This document shows, one piece after another, positions 28,717 through 40,070 of a stretch of 64,000 nucleotides of DNA (its first letter is position 1; each line of letters begins with the position of its first letter). The position numbers and the translations under genes were made by a program. A model generated the notes under the pieces. The model saw only the letters and a program-made list of their open reading frames with translations, was not told where the DNA came from and searched no databases. The stretch spans positions 124,001 through 188,000 of the forward strand of contig DAHXKG010000002.1 in NCBI GenBank assembly GCA_027366525.1. The letters run 5' to 3'. This DNA comes from a candidate division FCPU426 bacterium. Lineage in GTDB: Bacteria > Oederibacteriota > Muellerivitia > Muellerivitales > DAHXKG01.

Positions 28717-30096
28717 ATGAGCACCATTTTATTAGTTGATGACAAAGCAAGCATGCGTAAAGTATTACGTCAAACACTTGAAGATGATTCATGTTCAATT
28801 CTCGAAGCCGAAGATGGGGAAAAAGCATTGGAAATCATTAAAACCAAACACGTTGATGTGATTATTTCCGATATAAAAATGCCTAAATTAGATGGATTAA
28901 CACTTTTAAAAATGATTAAAGAAATTGATTCGGAAATTGTTGTTTTAATCATGACTGCGTACGGAACTATTGAAACTGCAGTCGATGCCATGAAATTAGG
29001 AGCCTATGATTACATAACCAAGCCTTTTTCCACTGAACAAGTTAAATTAACGGTTGAAAAAGCTATTGAACGTCAAAAATTAATTTATGAAAATAAGTAT
29101 CTGCGTGAAAAATTAAACGATCACTATAATTATAAACGAATTGTTGGAAATGGAAAAGTAATGCAACCAGTTTATGAATTGATTGATAAAGTTGCACCAA
29201 CCGATACATCGGTACTGATTCGAGGCGAATCGGGAACAGGTAAAGAATTAGTTGCTCATGCCATTCATTTTAATAGTCGACGAAAAGAAAAACCATTTAT
29301 TAAAGTAAATTGTGCAGTATTGGCTGAAGGTATTTTAGAAAGTGAGCTCTTTGGACATGAAAAAGGATCTTTTACAGGTGCTGCAGGTAAACGAATTGGA
29401 CGGTTTGAATTAGCCCATGGCGGTTCAATATTTTTAGATGAAATTGGAGATATTAGCCTCTCAACTCAAATTAAATTACTTCGTGTTCTTCAAGAAAAAG
29501 AGTTTGAAAGAGTAGGTGGAAATGAAATTATTCGTGCAGATGTTCGAATCATTGCGGCAACAAATAAAAATTTAGAAGAAGCAATTCGTAAAAATTTATT
29601 TCGAGAGGATTTATTTTTTAGACTTAATATTGTTCCGATTTATGTTCCTCCATTGAGGGAAAGAAAAGAAGATATTGAAAAATTATCATTGCATTTTTTA
29701 AATCGATACAGTTTAGAAGCAAATAAAAAAATTGAATCGATTGACCCTAAAACCATAGAACTATTAACTCGATATAATTGGCCTGGTAATGTACGTGAAC
29801 TAGAAAATGCAATTCAACGTGCGGTTGTTCTAGCAGATTCAAATATTATTTTTCCAGCCCATCTTCCCTTGGATATACAAACATTTCAAAGAGAAGAAAG
29901 CGCAAATATTTTAAAAGAGGATGCATCGCTAACCGAAAAAATAGAAAATTATGAAAAAGAACTTATTATGAGTGCAATGAAAAAAACTAATAATGTACAA
30001 ACTCGAGCATCAAAAATTTTAGGAATTAATAGAACGGCTTTAATTTATAAATTAAAGAAATATGGATTTATTACAGACGAGGACAATCAAAATTGA
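28717..30096 (+). CDS. NtrC-family sigma-54-dependent response regulator
   Basis: The ATG at 28717 follows AGGAG by eight bases (a TTG three bases earlier is unlikely), giving 459 residues. The receiver domain has the phospho-acceptor Asp52 in IISDIKMPKLDG. The AAA+ domain has Walker A GESGTGKE, the sigma-54-contact loop GSFTGA (GAFTGA in most members), Walker B GSIFLDEIGDI, and the arginine-finger region. The C-terminal Fis-type helix-turn-helix is ASKILGINRTALIYKLKK. It activates transcription by sigma-54 RNA polymerase. It lies 21 bases after its kinase. A -24/-12 type site is present 1.1 kb downstream, before the sigma-region-2-like gene. Confidence 0.95.
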   Translation: MSTILLVDDKASMRKVLRQTLEDDSCSILEAEDGEKALEIIKTKHVDVIISDIKMPKLDGLTLLKMIKEIDSEIVVLIMTAYGTIETAVDAMKLGAYDYITKPFSTEQVKLTVEKAIERQKLIYENKYLREKLNDHYNYKRIVGNGKVMQPVYELIDKVAPTDTSVLIRGESGTGKELVAHAIHFNSRRKEKPFIKVNCAVLAEGILESELFGHEKGSFTGAAGKRIGRFELAHGGSIFLDEIGDISLSTQIKLLRVLQEKEFERVGGNEIIRADVRIIAATNKNLEEAIRKNLFREDLFFRLNIVPIYVPPLRERKEDIEKLSLHFLNRYSLEANKKIESIDPKTIELLTRYNWPGNVRELENAIQRAVVLADSNIIFPAHLPLDIQTFQREESANILKEDASLTEKIENYEKELIMSAMKKTNNVQTRASKILGINRTALIYKLKKYGFITDEDNQN

Positions 30097-31058
30097 AATC
30101 GCTATATGGATTCTTAAGTGTTTTTTTGATTTTTATAACTACGACATATGTTTATGGTCAAAATGTTAGTAATTTAATTTATGAACCAACTTGGGGTACG
30201 TTTGATATTACTCAAATCAATAAAATTGTAGATAAATTTGAGATGGAAATTTCATATGAAAATAAGAAATTAAAATTGGAAGAAATTGAAAATACTAATT
30301 TAAATAGAAAATTAGTTCAGTTGGAAAATCAATCAGTTTATTTAGAAAAAAACAATAATTTTCTTTGGAAATCCAAGTTGAATAATACATTAGATCATCT
30401 TCAAAGCGCTTTGCAAAAAAAAGAATATTTATTTCAAAAAATAAAAAAATATAAAGAACATTTGATTGAAAAAATTCTTTCTTTAATTTCAATATGTAAT
30501 TTTAAATTAAAAATATTATTAAGGATTTATCAAAATAATAATCAATTGAATTTACATCACGTTATGGTTCAAATTAGGAATACTATACGGGAAAAAACAA
30601 AATTAAAAAATTCACTTTTGAAAATTAAAAATTATTTTTTAAATAATTATTTTATTTCAAATCCAAATGATTTGATTTTAAAGCTTCCTAAAGGTCAAAG
30701 AAACTCTGGTTTAATGTTGGCATTATTGCTGGATAAACAGAAAACGCTTAAAACTTGGATGAGTCGAGAAATTTTACTTGAAAATAAAATTCATTCAGAA
30801 ATTAGCCTCCAAAAACGCATTAAAAAATTTTTAATATTCATCAAAAAAAGCAATAAAAATTTCGAGAAAAATCAGTTAATCGATCAACTTAAAATACTTA
30901 AGTTGTTAAAGCAGAATCAAAACTGGGGCGAAAGAGATGAATTAAGTAAATTAGAAAAACAGTATCGAACGAATCACGGCTATTTACTTGAAATTCAAAG
31001 CTATATAAAAAAATTAGAAGCACAAATAGGTCACAAAAATGTTGCACCTGCTAATTAG
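30093..31058 (+). CDS. Exported coiled-coil protein of unknown function
   Basis: The start is a TTG at 30093 overlapping the stop of the response-regulator gene, supported by GAGGA nine bases upstream. The 321 residues begin with a signal peptide (to about 23, cleaved after VYG). The rest is very rich in Lys, Leu, Asn, Glu and Ile and mostly predicted coiled coil (for example KLKLEEIENTNLNRKLVQLE). No catalytic motif is seen. Coupling to the two-component genes suggests it works with the sensor, or is an envelope part controlled with it. It could be a periplasmic partner of the kinase sensor region. This is inference. Confidence 0.7.
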   Translation: MKSLYGFLSVFLIFITTTYVYGQNVSNLIYEPTWGTFDITQINKIVDKFEMEISYENKKLKLEEIENTNLNRKLVQLENQSVYLEKNNNFLWKSKLNNTLDHLQSALQKKEYLFQKIKKYKEHLIEKILSLISICNFKLKILLRIYQNNNQLNLHHVMVQIRNTIREKTKLKNSLLKIKNYFLNNYFISNPNDLILKLPKGQRNSGLMLALLLDKQKTLKTWMSREILLENKIHSEISLQKRIKKFLIFIKKSNKNFEKNQLIDQLKILKLLKQNQNWGERDELSKLEKQYRTNHGYLLEIQSYIKKLEAQIGHKNVAPAN

Positions 31059-31653: not shown

Positions 31654-32000
31654 GGGGGTGACCGGTTTCGACTGGGAATTAAAATTTTTGGGAGCGTGTC
31701 GAGGCGCCATTGCTCGTTTTAAAACATGGCAACCGGTATAACTGCCGACAATCAGTTAGCTCTGGCCGCTTAAGATCGGTCAGCATTTTCCCATAGATGC
31801 CTATTATATGGTGAAAATGATCGCAATAGGCTGGCTTGTATCAGGCGTGCTCCACCATGAGCAGGCAAGATTAAAAGGGGCTGGTTCTTTGTTCTTGTGC
31901 TTAAAAAAAATAAAGAACGAGAATTTCTTTTAAGCTACACACGTAGAGCCTAAGATGGATAATTTCTAGGACGTGGGTTCGATTCCCACCACCTCCACCA
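31654..32000 (+). ncRNA. ssrA: Transfer-messenger RNA
   Basis: tmRNA rescues stalled ribosomes and tags the unfinished protein for proteolysis, together with SmpB (encoded at 43008). The 347-base gene begins GGGGGTGACCGGTTTCGAC and ends GGTTCGATTCCCACCACC with an encoded CCA. The 5' GGGGGTG pairs with CACCTCC of the acceptor end, allowing one G-T. The tag frame starts with the resume codon GCA at 31729 and reads ATGITADNQLALAA, with a TAA at 31771-31773. The LALAA ending is the normal ClpXP-type degron. No promoter is evident right before it; the gene upstream ends one base before the RNA. Confidence 0.96.
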
Positions 32001-32025: not shown

Positions 32026-32364
32026 ATGTTAGTTATATTACTATTGATCATTTCTAATACCTTCATGACTTTTGCATGGTACGGTCATTTGAAGGAAAGA
32101 GAAAATCCAATTTTCAAGGCTATTCTTTCAAGTTGGTTGATTGCTCTCTTTGAATATTCTTTTCTAATTCCGGCTATCAGATTGGGTATAAATCAATTTT
32201 CAATCATTCAATTGCGAGTTATACAAGAATCGATAGCGTTAATCGTATTTTGCATATTTTCAATTACTTATTATAAGTTTAAATTTAAACTTAATCATTT
32301 CATAGGGCTAATCTTTATTTTATTAGCAGTCTTTTTTGTTTTTTGGAATTCAAAACGATTTTGA
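32026..32364 (+). CDS. DUF486 (DMT-superfamily) small membrane protein, copy 1
   Basis: The 112-residue protein has four hydrophobic segments and the family marks SNTFMTFAWYGHLK, SWLIALFEYSFLIPA.R and QLRVIQE. DUF486 proteins are compact relatives of drug/metabolite transporters with no firm function. It starts 26 bases after ssrA. A second DUF486 gene lies 2 kb further on (34328). No strong ribosome-binding site is seen. Confidence 0.85.
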   Translation: MLVILLLIISNTFMTFAWYGHLKERENPIFKAILSSWLIALFEYSFLIPAIRLGINQFSIIQLRVIQESIALIVFCIFSITYYKFKFKLNHFIGLIFILLAVFFVFWNSKRF

Positions 32365-34327: not shown

Positions 34328-34681
34328 ATGAGAACAATAATATTGCTTTTAATTTCCAATACATTTATGACGCTGGCATGGTATCTAAATTTGAGTTTTA
34401 AGGTACATTTTTTACCTTTAATTATACTTATGAGTTGGGGAATGGCATTTTTTGAATATTTATTTCAAGTTCCAGCAAATCGAATAGGAAGCTATCAATT
34501 TTCGCTTGTTCAACTAAAAACTATTCAAGAAATTATTACATTGTTTGTTTTTATTGTTTTTTCAATTTTTTATTTTAAAAATGCGATCGCTTGGAATGAT
34601 TTAGTGGCATTTGGTTGTGTCGTTGTTGCAGTTTATTTTATATTTAAAAATTCAGATGAAGTCCCTAAAACGCTTCATTAA
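34328..34681 (+). CDS. DUF486 (DMT-superfamily) small membrane protein, copy 2
   Basis: The 117 residues match copy 1 at 32026 along the whole length (LLISNTFMTLAWYLNL, SWGMAFFEYLFQVPA.R, QFSLVQLKTIQE), with four hydrophobic segments. The two genes are diverged paralogues, not a recent duplication. Together they flank the accessory patchwork at 32365-34150. It is followed after 45 bases by the efflux operon but need not belong to it. Confidence 0.85.
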   Translation: MRTIILLLISNTFMTLAWYLNLSFKVHFLPLIILMSWGMAFFEYLFQVPANRIGSYQFSLVQLKTIQEIITLFVFIVFSIFYFKNAIAWNDLVAFGCVVVAVYFIFKNSDEVPKTLH

Positions 34682-34726: not shown

Positions 34727-36139
34727 TTGAAATTTCTATGGATACTTGCTTTATCTGTAATAATGAGCGGTTGCGTGGCATATCATTCCCAAATATTAAA
34801 CTTAACAAGTATGGCCAATAGCTTTGAAGCCCGAACACTGAAAAATAAAAAATTGTATATTTTTTTAGAAAAACATTCACCTTACCGATCAAATTTCAAG
34901 CATAAGTGGAATGTAAATCTACTTGCCTTAGTAGCTTTTTATTACCGTTCTGATCTTAAGGAGATAAAAGAAGAAATTCGTATTGAAAACCAAAAAATTA
35001 AAGCAGTGCCTGGAATTTTAAGCGCTTTTTCACTACAAGATATTCTCGGGCATTATCAACCGACTAATTTGTATCCCAATCCATGGTCGTTAAACACCGG
35101 AATTCAAATGAAATTAAACGTATGGGGAAATCAAAATGCGAAAAGCAAATTAATAATACGCAAATGGAAAATGCTTTGGATTCAACTGGAATACAAGCTT
35201 TGGAAAATTCGTGAATCCATATCCACTGATTTGTTAAAAACATTTTTTTATAAGAAAGAACTTCAAATTCTTAATCGTGAAAATAACATTTTTCATTTAA
35301 TCAATTTTGAAAGCCAAAATATGATTTTTGATAATCGTTATAGACTTTCAGAAAAGATCCAGCAAGAAAAATTTTTTATTAAAAATGAAGTGGTTCAAGA
35401 AAAATTACAGCTATGTGTAGATCAATTAGGTAAGGTTTTGGCTATTCCAGAATCAGAAATATTAAAGATGCATTTTAAATATAATCGTGATTATTCTAAA
35501 CCCTTAAATCCTGCAATACTTTTCCCATTTAAACAAATGCAAATGTATGCATTAACTCAACGATTTGACATTTTAGAAGCAGCTCAACAATTTAATGAAG
35601 TTCAAGATGAACTACAAATAGCAATTGATGAACAATATCCAGCTATTCATATTGCTCCTGGTTATCTTTGGGATGCGCAAGGTGATAAATGGCTTTTTGG
35701 CCTTGGGTTATCTTTACCATTTTTAAATCATGCACATTCTAGAATCATGGAAATGCAATTTAAAAGAAAGCAAACGGCTGAAAAATTAATGGCCTTGCAA
35801 GAAAAAATAATCAGCAATTTAAAAGAAACTTGGAACAGGTACCAATATGCATATCAAATTTGGAAAAAATCGAAAAATATATTTAATTTTGAAAAAAAAC
35901 GCTATCGAATTTTTCAGAAATTTAAAAAAGGTGGAAAGGCATTTCAACTTGCAAAACTTAATTATCAATTGAAATATTTTAAATATCAACTTTATGAAAA
36001 TCAAAAACTTTATGCCTTAAATCAAGCATTATTGAAGTTGGAAAGAGTTCTTCAAATTCCAATTTTTAAAAGTTCTAAATCGTTATGGAATAAAGAAGTG
36101 GAATCATTTATGGTGTCTTGGAGAACAAATGAGAATTAA
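34727..36139 (+). CDS. TolC-family outer-membrane efflux lipoprotein
   Basis: The TTG at 34727 follows GAGG by seven bases. The 470-residue protein has a lipoprotein signal (lipobox IMSGC, Cys16). The body is long helical hairpins typical of the outer membrane factor family. The clearest match is the second half: AIHIAPGYLWDAQGDKWLFGLGLSLPF, here split as APGYLWDAQ and GLGLSLPF, followed by a long Lys/Glu-rich helix. It should form the trimeric exit duct of the tripartite pump whose other parts follow. It overlaps the next gene by 11 bases. Confidence 0.85.
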   Translation: MKFLWILALSVIMSGCVAYHSQILNLTSMANSFEARTLKNKKLYIFLEKHSPYRSNFKHKWNVNLLALVAFYYRSDLKEIKEEIRIENQKIKAVPGILSAFSLQDILGHYQPTNLYPNPWSLNTGIQMKLNVWGNQNAKSKLIIRKWKMLWIQLEYKLWKIRESISTDLLKTFFYKKELQILNRENNIFHLINFESQNMIFDNRYRLSEKIQQEKFFIKNEVVQEKLQLCVDQLGKVLAIPESEILKMHFKYNRDYSKPLNPAILFPFKQMQMYALTQRFDILEAAQQFNEVQDELQIAIDEQYPAIHIAPGYLWDAQGDKWLFGLGLSLPFLNHAHSRIMEMQFKRKQTAEKLMALQEKIISNLKETWNRYQYAYQIWKKSKNIFNFEKKRYRIFQKFKKGGKAFQLAKLNYQLKYFKYQLYENQKLYALNQALLKLERVLQIPIFKSSKSLWNKEVESFMVSWRTNEN

Positions 36140-36947
36140 AAAGAAATACCATATTCTTATTTTGATTTTTCAAATATTTGCTTTGTTTATCATTTCAACA
36201 AATTTATTTGCCATGAATACCCAGGCCAATGGACATTTGATTTTTTTAAATAAAAAAATTCGTTCTTTGAATGGAATTCGCATTGGAATTCTTTATTCGA
36301 GATGGCGATATCAAAAACTCACTCTACTAGGGAAGAATCTATCGTGGGAATATGTTAAAGAATGGAAAAGTCAATATCAAAATGCTGAAGCACAATCAAC
36401 TTTTCAAAATCGCCTCGTACAGTTTGCTATTCATCATTGGGGAGATAAATTTTTCCACCAAATTATTAATGATTTTAAGCCATTAAATCAACTTCAAGTC
36501 CAAGGTAAAAAATTGATTCAATGTACAATTGATGATCGAAAAATGTTTGATAATTTCATGAAAAGCAAAAATATAAAAATTCAAAAGGGAGAGAATGTTT
36601 ATCTATTAAGGGCAATTTCAAGTTATCCATATATATTCTTTGAAATTAACCGATGGCCAAATCATCAAATTCCCAAAAACAAAATTAAAGTTACATTTCA
36701 ATATTCTAAAGAGTTTCAAATTCCTAATTCAGCAGTTATTTGGTGGAAAGGTAAGCCATGGGTATTTGTAGAGATGAAAAGGCATCTTTGGAAACGAGTA
36801 TCAATTTCAAATGCTCAATCAAGGAGAAAAAGTTTCTGGAGTTCTAATGCTATTTTTCATTTCCCGATAATCATTCAGGGTGCAGAACAATGTCTTTCTT
36901 TGGAATTGATTTCATTTCATCTAGAAACTGTAAAGACAGGAAGCTAA
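36129..36947 (+). CDS. Reduced adaptor-like periplasmic protein of the RND pump
   Basis: The 272 residues begin with a signal peptide (to about 28, LFA before the cut). The gene sits exactly where the membrane fusion protein of a tripartite pump is expected. Residues 198-215 (IPNSAVIWWKGKPWVFVE) match the C-terminal membrane-proximal strand of RND adaptors (usually VP.SAV...G..YVFV). However, the lipoyl domain and long helical hairpin are not recognisable, and the protein is shorter than the usual 350-420 residues. It is probably a divergent or trimmed adaptor. A non-adaptor accessory role is the alternative. Confidence 0.6.
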   Translation: MRIKKKYHILILIFQIFALFIISTNLFAMNTQANGHLIFLNKKIRSLNGIRIGILYSRWRYQKLTLLGKNLSWEYVKEWKSQYQNAEAQSTFQNRLVQFAIHHWGDKFFHQIINDFKPLNQLQVQGKKLIQCTIDDRKMFDNFMKSKNIKIQKGENVYLLRAISSYPYIFFEINRWPNHQIPKNKIKVTFQYSKEFQIPNSAVIWWKGKPWVFVEMKRHLWKRVSISNAQSRRKSFWSSNAIFHFPIIIQGAEQCLSLELISFHLETVKTGS

Positions 36948-36953
36948 TTTTAT

Positions 36954-39900
36954 ATGTTTAAGCGAATTGTTGGATTTTCAATAAAATTTCGAAAATTGAT
37001 TTTATTTATATCAGTACTATTTATAATTTATAGTGTATTTTTATTACCAAAATTAAAATACGATATTTTCCCAAATTTTGTTAAACCAAGTATTACAATT
37101 CAAACTTTGGCAAATGGATTTTCTCCTCAACAGGTTGAACTTTTAGTAACACAACCTATTGAAGATGTGTTACATGGTATTAATGGAGTACAAGTAATAC
37201 GCTCTAAATCTATTCAAGGCTTATCAATTGTAAAAGTTTTTTTTAAATCTAACAGTAATATTTATCTGGATCGTCAATTGGTTTCCGATCAATTGACCAT
37301 TGTTGAAAATTCACTTCCAAAGCAAGTTCAACCACCTGTTTTGAGCCCCTTAACTTCAACCGCAGGTGTGGTATTAACAATGGGTTTAACTTCGCAACGT
37401 CTTTCACTGACTAAGCTGAGAACATTTGCAGAGTGGGTTTTAAAACCGAGGTTATTAGCTATTCGTGGAGTTGCAAATGTAGCTATTTTTGGAGGTAAGA
37501 TTCGACAAATACAAATTCAATTAAATAATAATAAATTATTAAAATACAATTTATCAATGAATGAAATTGCAAACCAACTTTCCAATTCGTTGAAGATAAT
37601 GGGACTTGGATTTGTAGATTCAACAAATCAACGAATTAATTTTCAATATCAAGCTCCAATTCAACACGCTCATCAATTGCTAAAACTTTTAATTTTTAAA
37701 AAATTAATTTCAGGTTCTCCTTTATTGATTCCGTTACGAAAATTTTCAAAAATTAAATATTCATTTGCTCCAAGATTAAGTGCGGGCTTAGTTAACACAC
37801 ATCGTTCGGTTATAATTCAAGTTTTTTCGCAATACAAGACCAATACATTAACCGTATCAGGCCGTATTTCACGAACTTTAAAATCAATGCAGTCAACACT
37901 TCAAAAAACTGGTATTCAATTACATGCGAATTTATTTAAACCAGCAGATTTCATCAATATTGCTTTAAAAAACATGATTCATTCAATTATCATTGGTGGT
38001 TTGCTAGTAATCATTATTTTAGTGCTATTTCTTTATAACTTTAAGGCAGCAGTAATTTCTTGTGTTGCGATCCCTTTGTCCTTATTGAGTGCAGTCGTTT
38101 TTTTACATTATGTGGGATTAACAATCAATATAATGACGCTTGGTGGGTTAGTAGTAGCATTAGGTGAAGTAGTTGATGATGCAGTAATCGATGTTGAAAA
38201 TATTATAAAACGAATATCGGAGAACTCGAGATTAAATATTTCAGAACCATTTTGGAAGGTAGTAATTAATGCTTCTTTGGAAATACGGGGTGCCGTGATT
38301 TATGCGACTCTTGCAGTATTGGCAATATTTATTCCTGTACTAACAATGACGGGTTTGGCTGGACGACTGTTTAGACCACTTGCATTAACCTATCTTTTTG
38401 CAGTTTTTGCATCGCTTTTAGTGGCCCTTTTAATTACACCAGCCTTGTGTGTATTATTGTTCAAAAATTATAAAAATACTTCTCCAGGATCTCCAATTGC
38501 CGATTGGCTAAAAAAACGTTATTATCAGGTTCTTAAATGGACACAAGAGCATTATGCTTTTGTTTTAATTTCTTGTTTGCTTTTAATTGGGTCTCTTATT
38601 TTAGTGATTCCGCACCTCAAAACCAGTTTTTTACCTCATTCGGATGATCCTAATCAAATATTGCATGTTGCCATGGTTCCAGGAACATCGTTACAGGAGT
38701 CTACACGAGTTGGAAAAATTATTGAAAAAATGCTTTTAAAAATTCCTGGTGTTAAAGATGTGGGTGAGCGTATTGGAAGAACTACGGGTGCAGTTGATAT
38801 TTTTGGAACTAATCAAGCTGAAATTGATTTGCGACTTGTTCCGTCTGCAGGAAATAATGTTCGTCACATAAAGAAAGTAATCATAAAGAAAATGCAAAAA
38901 ATCAAAGGAGTAGTTTATTCAATTAATGGATTTTTAACAGAAAGAATTAATGAAACACTTTCAGCAGGCAGTGGAGCTCCTGTGATTATTCAGCTTTTTG
39001 GTCAACATTTGAAATTGCTAGATCGTAAAATTTTAAGACTCGCACAAATTGTTAAAAATACTCGAGGAGCTTCACAAGTTGAATTCCAATCAGTTCCACG
39101 AACACCAGAAATTGAAATTCAATTGAATTTAAACGCTTTATCACACTGGGGATTTCAACCTCAACAAGTTTTAGATCAAATTCATATTGCACTCGAAGGT
39201 AAAGTAATTGGGCAAGTTTATTCGGGAAATAGAACAACACAAGTAATTGTTATTTTAAATCCCAAAGATCGTGAAACTCCACAACAAATTGGGAAGATAT
39301 CAGTAAAAAGCTTGTTAGGTTACTATTATGTTCCACTTGCTAAGTTAGCAAAAATTAACTTTAAAAATGGCAGATTTGCAATTTATCATCAAAATGGACG
39401 TCGGATGGAATCATTGTCCTGTTATGTTAAAAACAGAAGTATTAATTCTTTTGAAAAATCATTGCGCGAGCGCATCAAAAAGAACCTTCATTTAAATTCA
39501 AGCATGTATATAAAATTTTTGGGAACAGCGGCAGCTCAAAATAAAGCTAAAACCGAATTAATAGTACATTCTATATTTATAGGGTTAATAGTTCTATTAA
39601 TACTCGGGATTGTTTTAAGGCATCCTCAAAATTTATTACTTATAATTGTAAATTTGCCCATGACTCTCATTGGCGGTTTTTGGGCTTCACTATTTTTAGG
39701 CGGATGGATAACCGTTGGATCAATGGTTGGATTTATTACGTTGTTTGGGATCACAGTTCGGAATTCTATTTTAATGATTACACACTATCAAAATCTTGTT
39801 TTGAATGAAAAAAAAGTTTGGTGTAAAGAAATCGCAATCCAAGGTGCCGTTGATAGATTAATTCCTATTTTAATGACGGCATGTATTACATCGGCGGGTT

Positions 39901-40070
39901 TACTTCCGTTGGCACTATCTCCTTATGCTCCGGGACATGAAATTGAAGGGCCGATGGCATTAATTATTTTAGGAGGATTGATTACCTCAACATTGCTTAA
40001 TTTGCTAGTTTTGCCGTCCTTGGCATGGAGATATGGAAAATTTGATATTGTCAGCCATGAAATTGAATGA
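36954..40070 (+). CDS. RND-family efflux pump, inner-membrane subunit
   Basis: The 1,038-residue protein has the full RND plan: an N-terminal helix, a large periplasmic loop, six helices, a second loop and six helices. The proton-relay pair Asp408/Asp409 is in helix 4 (GEVVDDAVIDVENI). The VDDAVIDVENI text is closer to the heavy-metal/CzcA-like branch than to AcrB. Other marks: FVKPSITIQT..NGFSPQQVE and GVALPL-type segments before the second helix bundle. It uses the proton gradient to drive export through the TolC-like protein. The substrate (metal ion or organic compound) cannot be decided from the sequence. It ends the three-gene operon. Confidence 0.9.
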   Translation: MFKRIVGFSIKFRKLILFISVLFIIYSVFLLPKLKYDIFPNFVKPSITIQTLANGFSPQQVELLVTQPIEDVLHGINGVQVIRSKSIQGLSIVKVFFKSNSNIYLDRQLVSDQLTIVENSLPKQVQPPVLSPLTSTAGVVLTMGLTSQRLSLTKLRTFAEWVLKPRLLAIRGVANVAIFGGKIRQIQIQLNNNKLLKYNLSMNEIANQLSNSLKIMGLGFVDSTNQRINFQYQAPIQHAHQLLKLLIFKKLISGSPLLIPLRKFSKIKYSFAPRLSAGLVNTHRSVIIQVFSQYKTNTLTVSGRISRTLKSMQSTLQKTGIQLHANLFKPADFINIALKNMIHSIIIGGLLVIIILVLFLYNFKAAVISCVAIPLSLLSAVVFLHYVGLTINIMTLGGLVVALGEVVDDAVIDVENIIKRISENSRLNISEPFWKVVINASLEIRGAVIYATLAVLAIFIPVLTMTGLAGRLFRPLALTYLFAVFASLLVALLITPALCVLLFKNYKNTSPGSPIADWLKKRYYQVLKWTQEHYAFVLISCLLLIGSLILVIPHLKTSFLPHSDDPNQILHVAMVPGTSLQESTRVGKIIEKMLLKIPGVKDVGERIGRTTGAVDIFGTNQAEIDLRLVPSAGNNVRHIKKVIIKKMQKIKGVVYSINGFLTERINETLSAGSGAPVIIQLFGQHLKLLDRKILRLAQIVKNTRGASQVEFQSVPRTPEIEIQLNLNALSHWGFQPQQVLDQIHIALEGKVIGQVYSGNRTTQVIVILNPKDRETPQQIGKISVKSLLGYYYVPLAKLAKINFKNGRFAIYHQNGRRMESLSCYVKNRSINSFEKSLRERIKKNLHLNSSMYIKFLGTAAAQNKAKTELIVHSIFIGLIVLLILGIVLRHPQNLLLIIVNLPMTLIGGFWASLFLGGWITVGSMVGFITLFGITVRNSILMITHYQNLVLNEKKVWCKEIAIQGAVDRLIPILMTACITSAGLLPLALSPYAPGHEIEGPMALIILGGLITSTLLNLLVLPSLAWRYGKFDIVSHEIE

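Follow-up and report, generated by a model that had tools for sequence, protein, structure and literature searches.

An RND efflux operon of candidate division FCPU426 whose adaptor relative has neither a lipoyl domain nor a complete helical hairpin

How do RND pumps join two membranes when the adaptors encoded beside them lack the domains that would reach the outer-membrane channel? The question is raised by an operon in a stretch of 64,000 nucleotides from a candidate division FCPU426 bacterium (the window, by which we mean the whole stretch analysed). Three open reading frames (ORFs) at 34727-40070 sit where an earlier, sequence-only reading had placed them, encoding an outer-membrane channel lipoprotein (OEP), a 272-residue protein and an RND pump. 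According to that reading, the middle gene encodes a signal peptide and a strand typical of periplasmic adaptors, its product may be the adaptor, and neither a lipoyl domain nor a helical hairpin is clear in it; a pump with such an adaptor, the reading continued, would have to be linked to its channel by a much shorter bridge.

The OEP gene (34727..36139, forward strand) has a TTG start and encodes a full-length channel of the OEP/TolC family, 470 residues long, which matches PF02321 at 1.7e-9 and has a lipobox recognised by eye (...VIMSGC). A profile of 34 ORFs in the OEP position, three of which are probably not OEPs, matches it with 193 bits over positions 13-462 of 473, revealing no extension; at the tip of the first repeat, nine residues are missing in the alignment and five extra residues stand just before. 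The ORF of the 272-residue protein (36129..36947, forward strand) starts within the OEP gene, with an overlap of 11 nucleotides, and a spacer of six nucleotides follows its stop codon before the pump gene (36954..40070, forward strand) starts. The pump has a normal length of 1038 residues and passes as an RND permease by PF00873 (ACR_tran; 3.9e-206, 687.4 bits, cut-off 28), while its 567.3 bits against TIGR00914, the CusA/CzcA heavy-metal RND permease, lie under the cut-off of 701.45. Its nearest solved structures are ZneA (3.7e-108) and CusA (8.3e-87). It is strongly divergent, with an end branch of 1.49 on the tree considered below, and it retains D408, D409 and E415, which are invariant across nine aligned pumps. 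A compensating extension was sought in the OEP and the pump and none was seen; as both are of normal length, nothing seen in them makes up for the lost reach of the adaptor.

The middle protein begins with a hydrophobic, signal-like segment (recognised by eye, about residues 1-28, and predicted as helix 4-25 in the structure described below) and carries the adaptor strand IPNSAVIWWKGKPWVFVE at residues 198-215, as the sequence-only reading had noticed. Nothing in Pfam or NCBIfam reaches its cut-off for this protein (best E-values 0.01 and 0.022), and TIGR01730 gives no match; among the ten members of our alignment A1, at E-values of 0.1 or better, TIGR01730 matches seven and TIGR00999 six, and in the same comparison the window protein matches neither. 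Searched as a single sequence, the protein recovered itself in one of 59 genomes and no relative in the 58 others, and on plasmids it gave one weak match (E = 0.03), so that a profile was needed to find its kin. A profile of 40 adaptors in the same operon position, with the window left out, matches the 272-residue ORF with 59.9 bits (E = 4e-18), together with ORFs of 140 residues in genome G001 (1.2e-22), 166 residues in genome G018 (2.4e-19) and 155 residues in Arthrobacter sp. ES3-54 (3.3e-14); the best ORF that is not an adaptor has an E-value of 0.21. At the level of sequence, a chance match of the protein to adaptors is excluded. Its gene also has the position of an adaptor gene, next to those of an OEP and an RND pump.

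Taken domain by domain, the protein reaches 45.1 bits (E = 3.6e-13; first of 579 in a ranking with shuffles) with the sub-profile of the membrane-proximal domain (MPD) and 11.7 bits (rank 1 of 385) with that of the barrel start (WG-barrel). The hairpin-tip sub-profile, at 1.8 bits and rank 3 of 561, is within noise, and neither the N-terminal nor the second barrel sub-profile gives the protein a standout score. Neither of two profiles for the lipoyl halves, LIP1 and LIP2, matches it. The bracket count, meaning the residues that fall between the profile columns flanking the hairpin, is 45; the most frequent class among the relatives has 88.

Structure prediction of the 272-residue protein alone (AlphaFold2, mean pLDDT 78) gave an adaptor-like fold, and not the unrelated one that the sequence-only reading had named as the case against an adaptor. 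In the model, the MPD strands occupy residues 35-54 and 194-264, and residues 201-260 of this domain are modelled at pLDDT 87-96. A single helix spans residues 74-104, preceded by a stretch with pLDDT below 50 (residues 59-76), and residues 126-192 form a probable beta-barrel (pLDDT about 69-81). The model contains no lipoyl-type strands between the N-terminal MPD strand and the barrel, and its helix may be what is left of a single hairpin arm. When compared with the PDB by VIA-align, it is closest to CusB (Z 10.7; 2.7 A over 95 residues) and ZneB (Z 9.7; 2.6 A over 87), followed by BesA (Z 7.7) and by MexA and AcrA (about 7), in a range below Z 8 where the tool warns of common arrangements. 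These adaptor matches cover mainly the MPD, a domain thus found by sub-profile and by superposition on CusB alike. With Foldseek, the best PDB match of the model was MexA at 2.5e-3, and none fell under 0.001. The modelled barrel also resembles F1-beta N-terminal barrels (Z about 5.8 over 62 residues, again in the range that the tool calls common), and the flagellar protein FlgT has been linked both to the F1-beta N-terminal barrel domain and to the adaptor barrel, in the accessible part of the source (PMC4446572). Judged from the model, the 272-residue protein probably keeps a beta-barrel.

Profile, synteny and the CusB/ZneB-like model together support the protein as a true relative of RND periplasmic adaptors, as had been suspected from the letters alone. 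They likewise support its lack of a lipoyl domain and of a complete helical hairpin, where a missing LIP match, a short bracket and one helix now stand behind what had been an impression.

Relatives of the pump are found on plasmids of Pseudomonadota (about 36-44% identity) and at at least 80 named genome loci (31-43%). TolC, adaptor or hypothetical protein, and pump are annotated in this order in six of nine plasmid regions, and the ORF directly before the pump in relatives is typically an adaptor of about 300-420 residues. These adaptors, annotated variously as adaptor subunit, hypothetical protein, multidrug transporter or metal transporter, end in a motif like vPasAvvWyqGqaWvYv...GAQlLLSEE. 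Most of them bear a hairpin and, like the window protein, have no lipoyl domain, as indicated by profiles and by the model of one of them, L047 (pLDDT 91), in which hairpin helices 93-131 and 138-183 stand directly on the barrel with no lipoyl strands. Foldseek matches this model to AcrA, TMexC, ZneB and MexA, and VIA-align to CusB (Z 11.4). At E < 0.05, the lipoyl profiles match none of the 47 lipoyl-less relatives (0/38 and 0/9) and none of five reduced adaptors. As seeds for LIP1 and LIP2 we took 12 and 13 fragments, and because several of them belong to hairpin-less adaptors of the window's phylum, detection leans towards such adaptors. Among 25 adaptors classed as lipoyl-bearing by length and reading, and not blind, LIP2 finds 23, LIP1 10 and both together 8 at this threshold; LIP1 being insensitive, the absence of the domain is read mainly from the second half, from length and from the L047 model.

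Bracket counts fall into a graded series. They are 139-156 in eight adaptors (L061, L067, L073, L078, L079, L084, L090 and L108), with lipoyl halves visible in all six that were inspected (L061, L067, L073, L078, L090 and L108), 86-88 in 37 of the 38 members of the largest lipoyl-less class (L059 counts 66, interrupted by unknown bases), 68-74 in nine other lipoyl-less adaptors, 45 in the window, and 0 in G001, G018 and Arthrobacter; L070 and loci at which no adaptor ORF was recovered were excluded from these groups. The 272-residue protein, which matches the profile over MPD and WG-barrel, belongs with the lipoyl-less family as delimited in this analysis, whose members mostly carry the hairpin directly on the barrel; it has also lost most of the hairpin, where the family counts about 88, or 68-74 in some. 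The lipoyl loss of the hairpin-bearing relatives, and a reduction found across the order, had not been seen in the sequence-only reading.

When 76 pumps are placed on a tree, the partners of four reduced adaptors fall in four places, and the starred branches force four changes. A single origin of the four was considered and rejected, as the tree needs four changes for four rows, but shuffled labels also average 4.0, and the window branch is long. Also set aside were apparent OEP-adaptor fusions in L053 and L115, whose joined ORFs contain a part that looks out of frame, and an adaptor-pump fusion in L040, which was not used because the C-terminus of its adaptor part seems to be out of frame. 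The glycine at the OEP tip is kept in 30 of 30 channels whose partner adaptor bears a hairpin or lipoyl domain, lost in the window and G001, and kept in G018 (Fisher p = 0.006, in a count that drops L037, annotated as an MFS gene, and L041 and L067, which by eye look out of frame). The alignment is therefore suggestive of a glycine loss that accompanies hairpin loss; strict co-loss fails at G018, where the adaptor is MPD-only and the tip motif is kept.

Reduction extends well beyond the window operon. The same genome has two more PF00873 pumps, one on contig C31 with a 295-residue adaptor without lipoyl and hairpin, and one on C27 with an OEP and no adaptor gene on either side. Across the order (genomes G000-G008), 21 upstream flanks from eight of the nine genomes, drawn from a larger number of pump matches of which many are fragments, comprise 12 with adaptors, seven without and two ambiguous (G001:C7 and G007:C144). 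Both lipoyl and hairpin are missing from 11 of the 12 adaptors: G000:C22, G000:C31, G001:C23 twice (140 and 223 residues), G001:C24, G002:C2, G003:C110, G005:C203 (cut at a contig end), G005:C157, G006:C66 and G007:C162. The smallest of these, the 140-residue form between OEP and pump in G001, has a TM segment and an MPD. The twelfth, G004:C6, has a lipoyl domain and a 46-residue gap. LIP2 matches at E < 0.01 in G001:C24a, G002:C2, G003:C110 and G005:C157 cover positions 36-56 of 58 only, past the lipoyl part, and these four were counted as lipoyl-less. The seven OEP-pump pairs without an intervening adaptor are G000:C27, inspected on both sides, and G001:C24, G002:C17, G003:C13, G004:C49, G005:C19 and G006:C159, inspected on the upstream flank; their pumps read as AcrB-like. 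Counted on upstream flanks, adaptors are reduced or absent at 18 of the 21 RND pumps examined in the order.

In the rest of the phylum, a link of 7-12 residues replaces the hairpin in 20 of 30 adaptors (49-68 residues in the other 10), compared with links of 7 and 11 residues in two of 16 adaptors from other phyla (56 or more in 14), a contrast (Fisher p = 6e-4) that may be inflated because the profile seeds include hairpin-less adaptors. These 46 are the adaptors in which both lipoyl halves match at E < 0.05, the gap being counted between the halves; G050_L212, whose half-matches overlap (gap -27), was dropped, and adaptors with one half only (e.g. G032_L019 and G035_L029) are not among the 30. 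From this we draw a broader proposal that we hold only tentatively and would not yet bet on: the order, and much of the phylum with the lipoyl domain kept, may carry out RND efflux without any channel-reaching adaptor part, pumps of separate ancestry having adaptors that are pump-proximal, MPD-only or gone, leaving the channel no option but to dock on the pump itself. If true, the irreducible job of an adaptor would be acting on the pump, not bridging.

For the window operon itself, we favour, with a probability of roughly 0.6, a reading in which the 272-residue protein is an adaptor relative cut to its pump-proximal part and serves as a collar of the pump, with the OEP docked in direct or near-direct contact with it. 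The adaptor would surround the porter domain of the pump, stabilising or activating it, and the OEP, if coupled, would sit on the pump apex with little or nothing between, because no part able to reach the OEP was found; we infer the coupling of OEP and pump from their shared operon alone. In the accessible part of the source, AcrA contacts its pump through its MP, barrel and lipoyl domains (PMC3807786). By analogy, the domains kept in the 272-residue protein would be among those that touch the pump, and since the lipoyl domain of AcrA touches it too, lipoyl loss would mean more than lost reach. Heavy metals or other small cations are suggested as candidate substrates by the relationship of the pump sequence to CusA and ZneA and by metal-type regulators beside some relatives, near which heavy-metal sensor kinases, ArsR/SmtB regulators and a 'metal transporter' annotation occur.

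The Arthrobacter homologue, MPD-only and beside a distantly related pump (32% identity), bears on this reading. To our knowledge, no outer-membrane channel is expected in this actinomycete, so the MPD may act without a TolC partner, in agreement with a role that it would play on the pump. The same homologue, and the seven OEP-pump pairs of the order without an adaptor between, would also suit an uncoupled arrangement in which the reduced adaptor activates or stabilises a pump that exports into the periplasm and the OEP is separate; we consider this unlikely, given that the OEP stays in the operon, its gene overlapping or nearly adjacent, in the window, G001 and G018. Decay of the adaptor, perhaps of the whole system, into a degenerating remnant in a small genome seems improbable to us: strong divergence, AT-rich sequence, the long pump branch (1.49) and the deletion at the OEP tip could be read in that way, the divergence also as relaxed constraint, but the three ORFs are intact and closely spaced, the conserved MPD core is kept (45.1 bits), the pump is full length with D408, D409 and E415 in place, and similar reduction is found beside other pumps of the same phylum.

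Hairpin and lipoyl functions might instead be supplied in trans, in a four-component system or by an adaptor shared with ABC or MFS operons. The genome does encode lipoyl adaptors at C27:153008 (245 residues) and C2:29714 (274 residues), with short hairpins by reading, and a secreted helical protein lies at 30093-31058 of the window. The two adaptors, however, each belong to an operon that has its own transporter (ABC or MFS) and OEP, which also speaks against the concern, raised from the sequence, that a normal adaptor elsewhere might be tied to the pump. The helical ORF is 3.7 kb off, past a tmRNA gene and others, and the best Pfam match that it has, to an unrelated family, stays under the cut-off. 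TIGR01730 otherwise matches the C31 adaptor and, on C33, a biotin carboxyl carrier protein, and PF13533 has one match in the genome, below cut-off; searches with these two profiles thus found no other adaptor linked to the window pump, in an assembly of 33 contigs and 97.5% completeness from which a partner could be missing. We regard supply in trans as a poor prospect, and the pump-proximal collar remains our preferred reading.

Hairpin-less adaptors are already known from BesABC of Borrelia burgdorferi. In the accessible part of its description, BesABC resembles the window in having a hairpin-less RND adaptor, BesA, in an OEP-adaptor-pump operon and a pump and OEP without extra domain; its authors consider the lipoyl domain key in stabilising the channel contact, drew direct contact between pump and channel as essential, and mention further hairpin-less adaptors for Treponema, Spirochaeta and, rarely, Legionella (PMC3807786). 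BesA keeps its lipoyl domain (PMC3807786). A BesA-type adaptor has this domain and a short loop in place of the hairpin, whereas the window protein has no lipoyl domain and so does not qualify as one. No adaptor without a lipoyl domain, or without both domains, is described in the accessible parts of PMC4446572, PMC8277102, PMC13328181, PMC4338810 and PMC11559062, and no lineage-wide adaptor loss was found in the literature searched, which was covered in part and had subscription papers mostly outside its scope. Whether pump and channel touch directly or are joined by adaptor hairpins only has long been debated, and the tip-to-tip model has been said to meet perhaps its biggest challenge in BesA-type assemblies, again in the accessible text (PMC4446572). 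In BesA, contact through the lipoyl domain was still conceivable, an option that adaptors without both domains remove. Beside a normal OEP and pump, such adaptors are natural deletion mutants that make the essential part of an adaptor directly testable, and they point to the MPD as the minimal unit, whose action on the pump can be studied alone.

The lipoyl-less adaptors of Pseudomonadota, Acidobacteriota and others share with the window protein its operon position, its MPD motif and the missing lipoyl domain; they keep the hairpin, with a commonest bracket count of 88, whereas the window protein has 45 and the G001, G018 and Arthrobacter forms have none. CusB and ZneB, its best structural matches, mainly over the MPD, carry lipoyl and helical domains, and the window pump is nearest their counterparts ZneA and CusA. 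The window adaptor, with neither a lipoyl domain nor a complete hairpin, is thus, as far as sequence and model indicate, adaptor-like by homology and yet fails two features usual in its family.

Upstream of the efflux operon, a forward-strand ORF at 30093-31058 encodes a 321-aa protein that appears by eye to be secreted and strongly helical; the ORF overlaps a response-regulator gene of the sigma54 type at that gene's end, and its family matches all fall below the cut-off. Two small membrane proteins that resemble each other are encoded on the same strand, one of 112 aa (32026-32364) directly after the tmRNA gene (31654-32000) and one of 117 aa (34328-34681) directly before the operon.

Elsewhere in the window's genome, on contig C27 (locus L136, 4320-8941), an RND pump is encoded with its own outer-membrane channel (OEP), and the pair has no adaptor gene nearby. 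Six further genomes of the order (G001-G006), read on the upstream flank, likewise have an OEP and a pump in this arrangement.

Among relatives, adaptors that lack the lipoyl domain and carry the hairpin directly on the barrel form a widespread family (loci L036, L044-L049 and others), whose annotations vary between adaptor, metal transporter, multidrug transporter and hypothetical protein. In the actinomycete Arthrobacter sp. ES3-54, an RND pump adjoins a 155-aa adaptor consisting of the membrane-proximal domain only (L107, 3532-3996). Outside the window's order, its phylum commonly has adaptors (L007, L009, L020, L022, L025, L030 and others) resembling BesA of Borrelia burgdorferi, in which the lipoyl domain is retained and a link of 7-12 residues replaces the hairpin.
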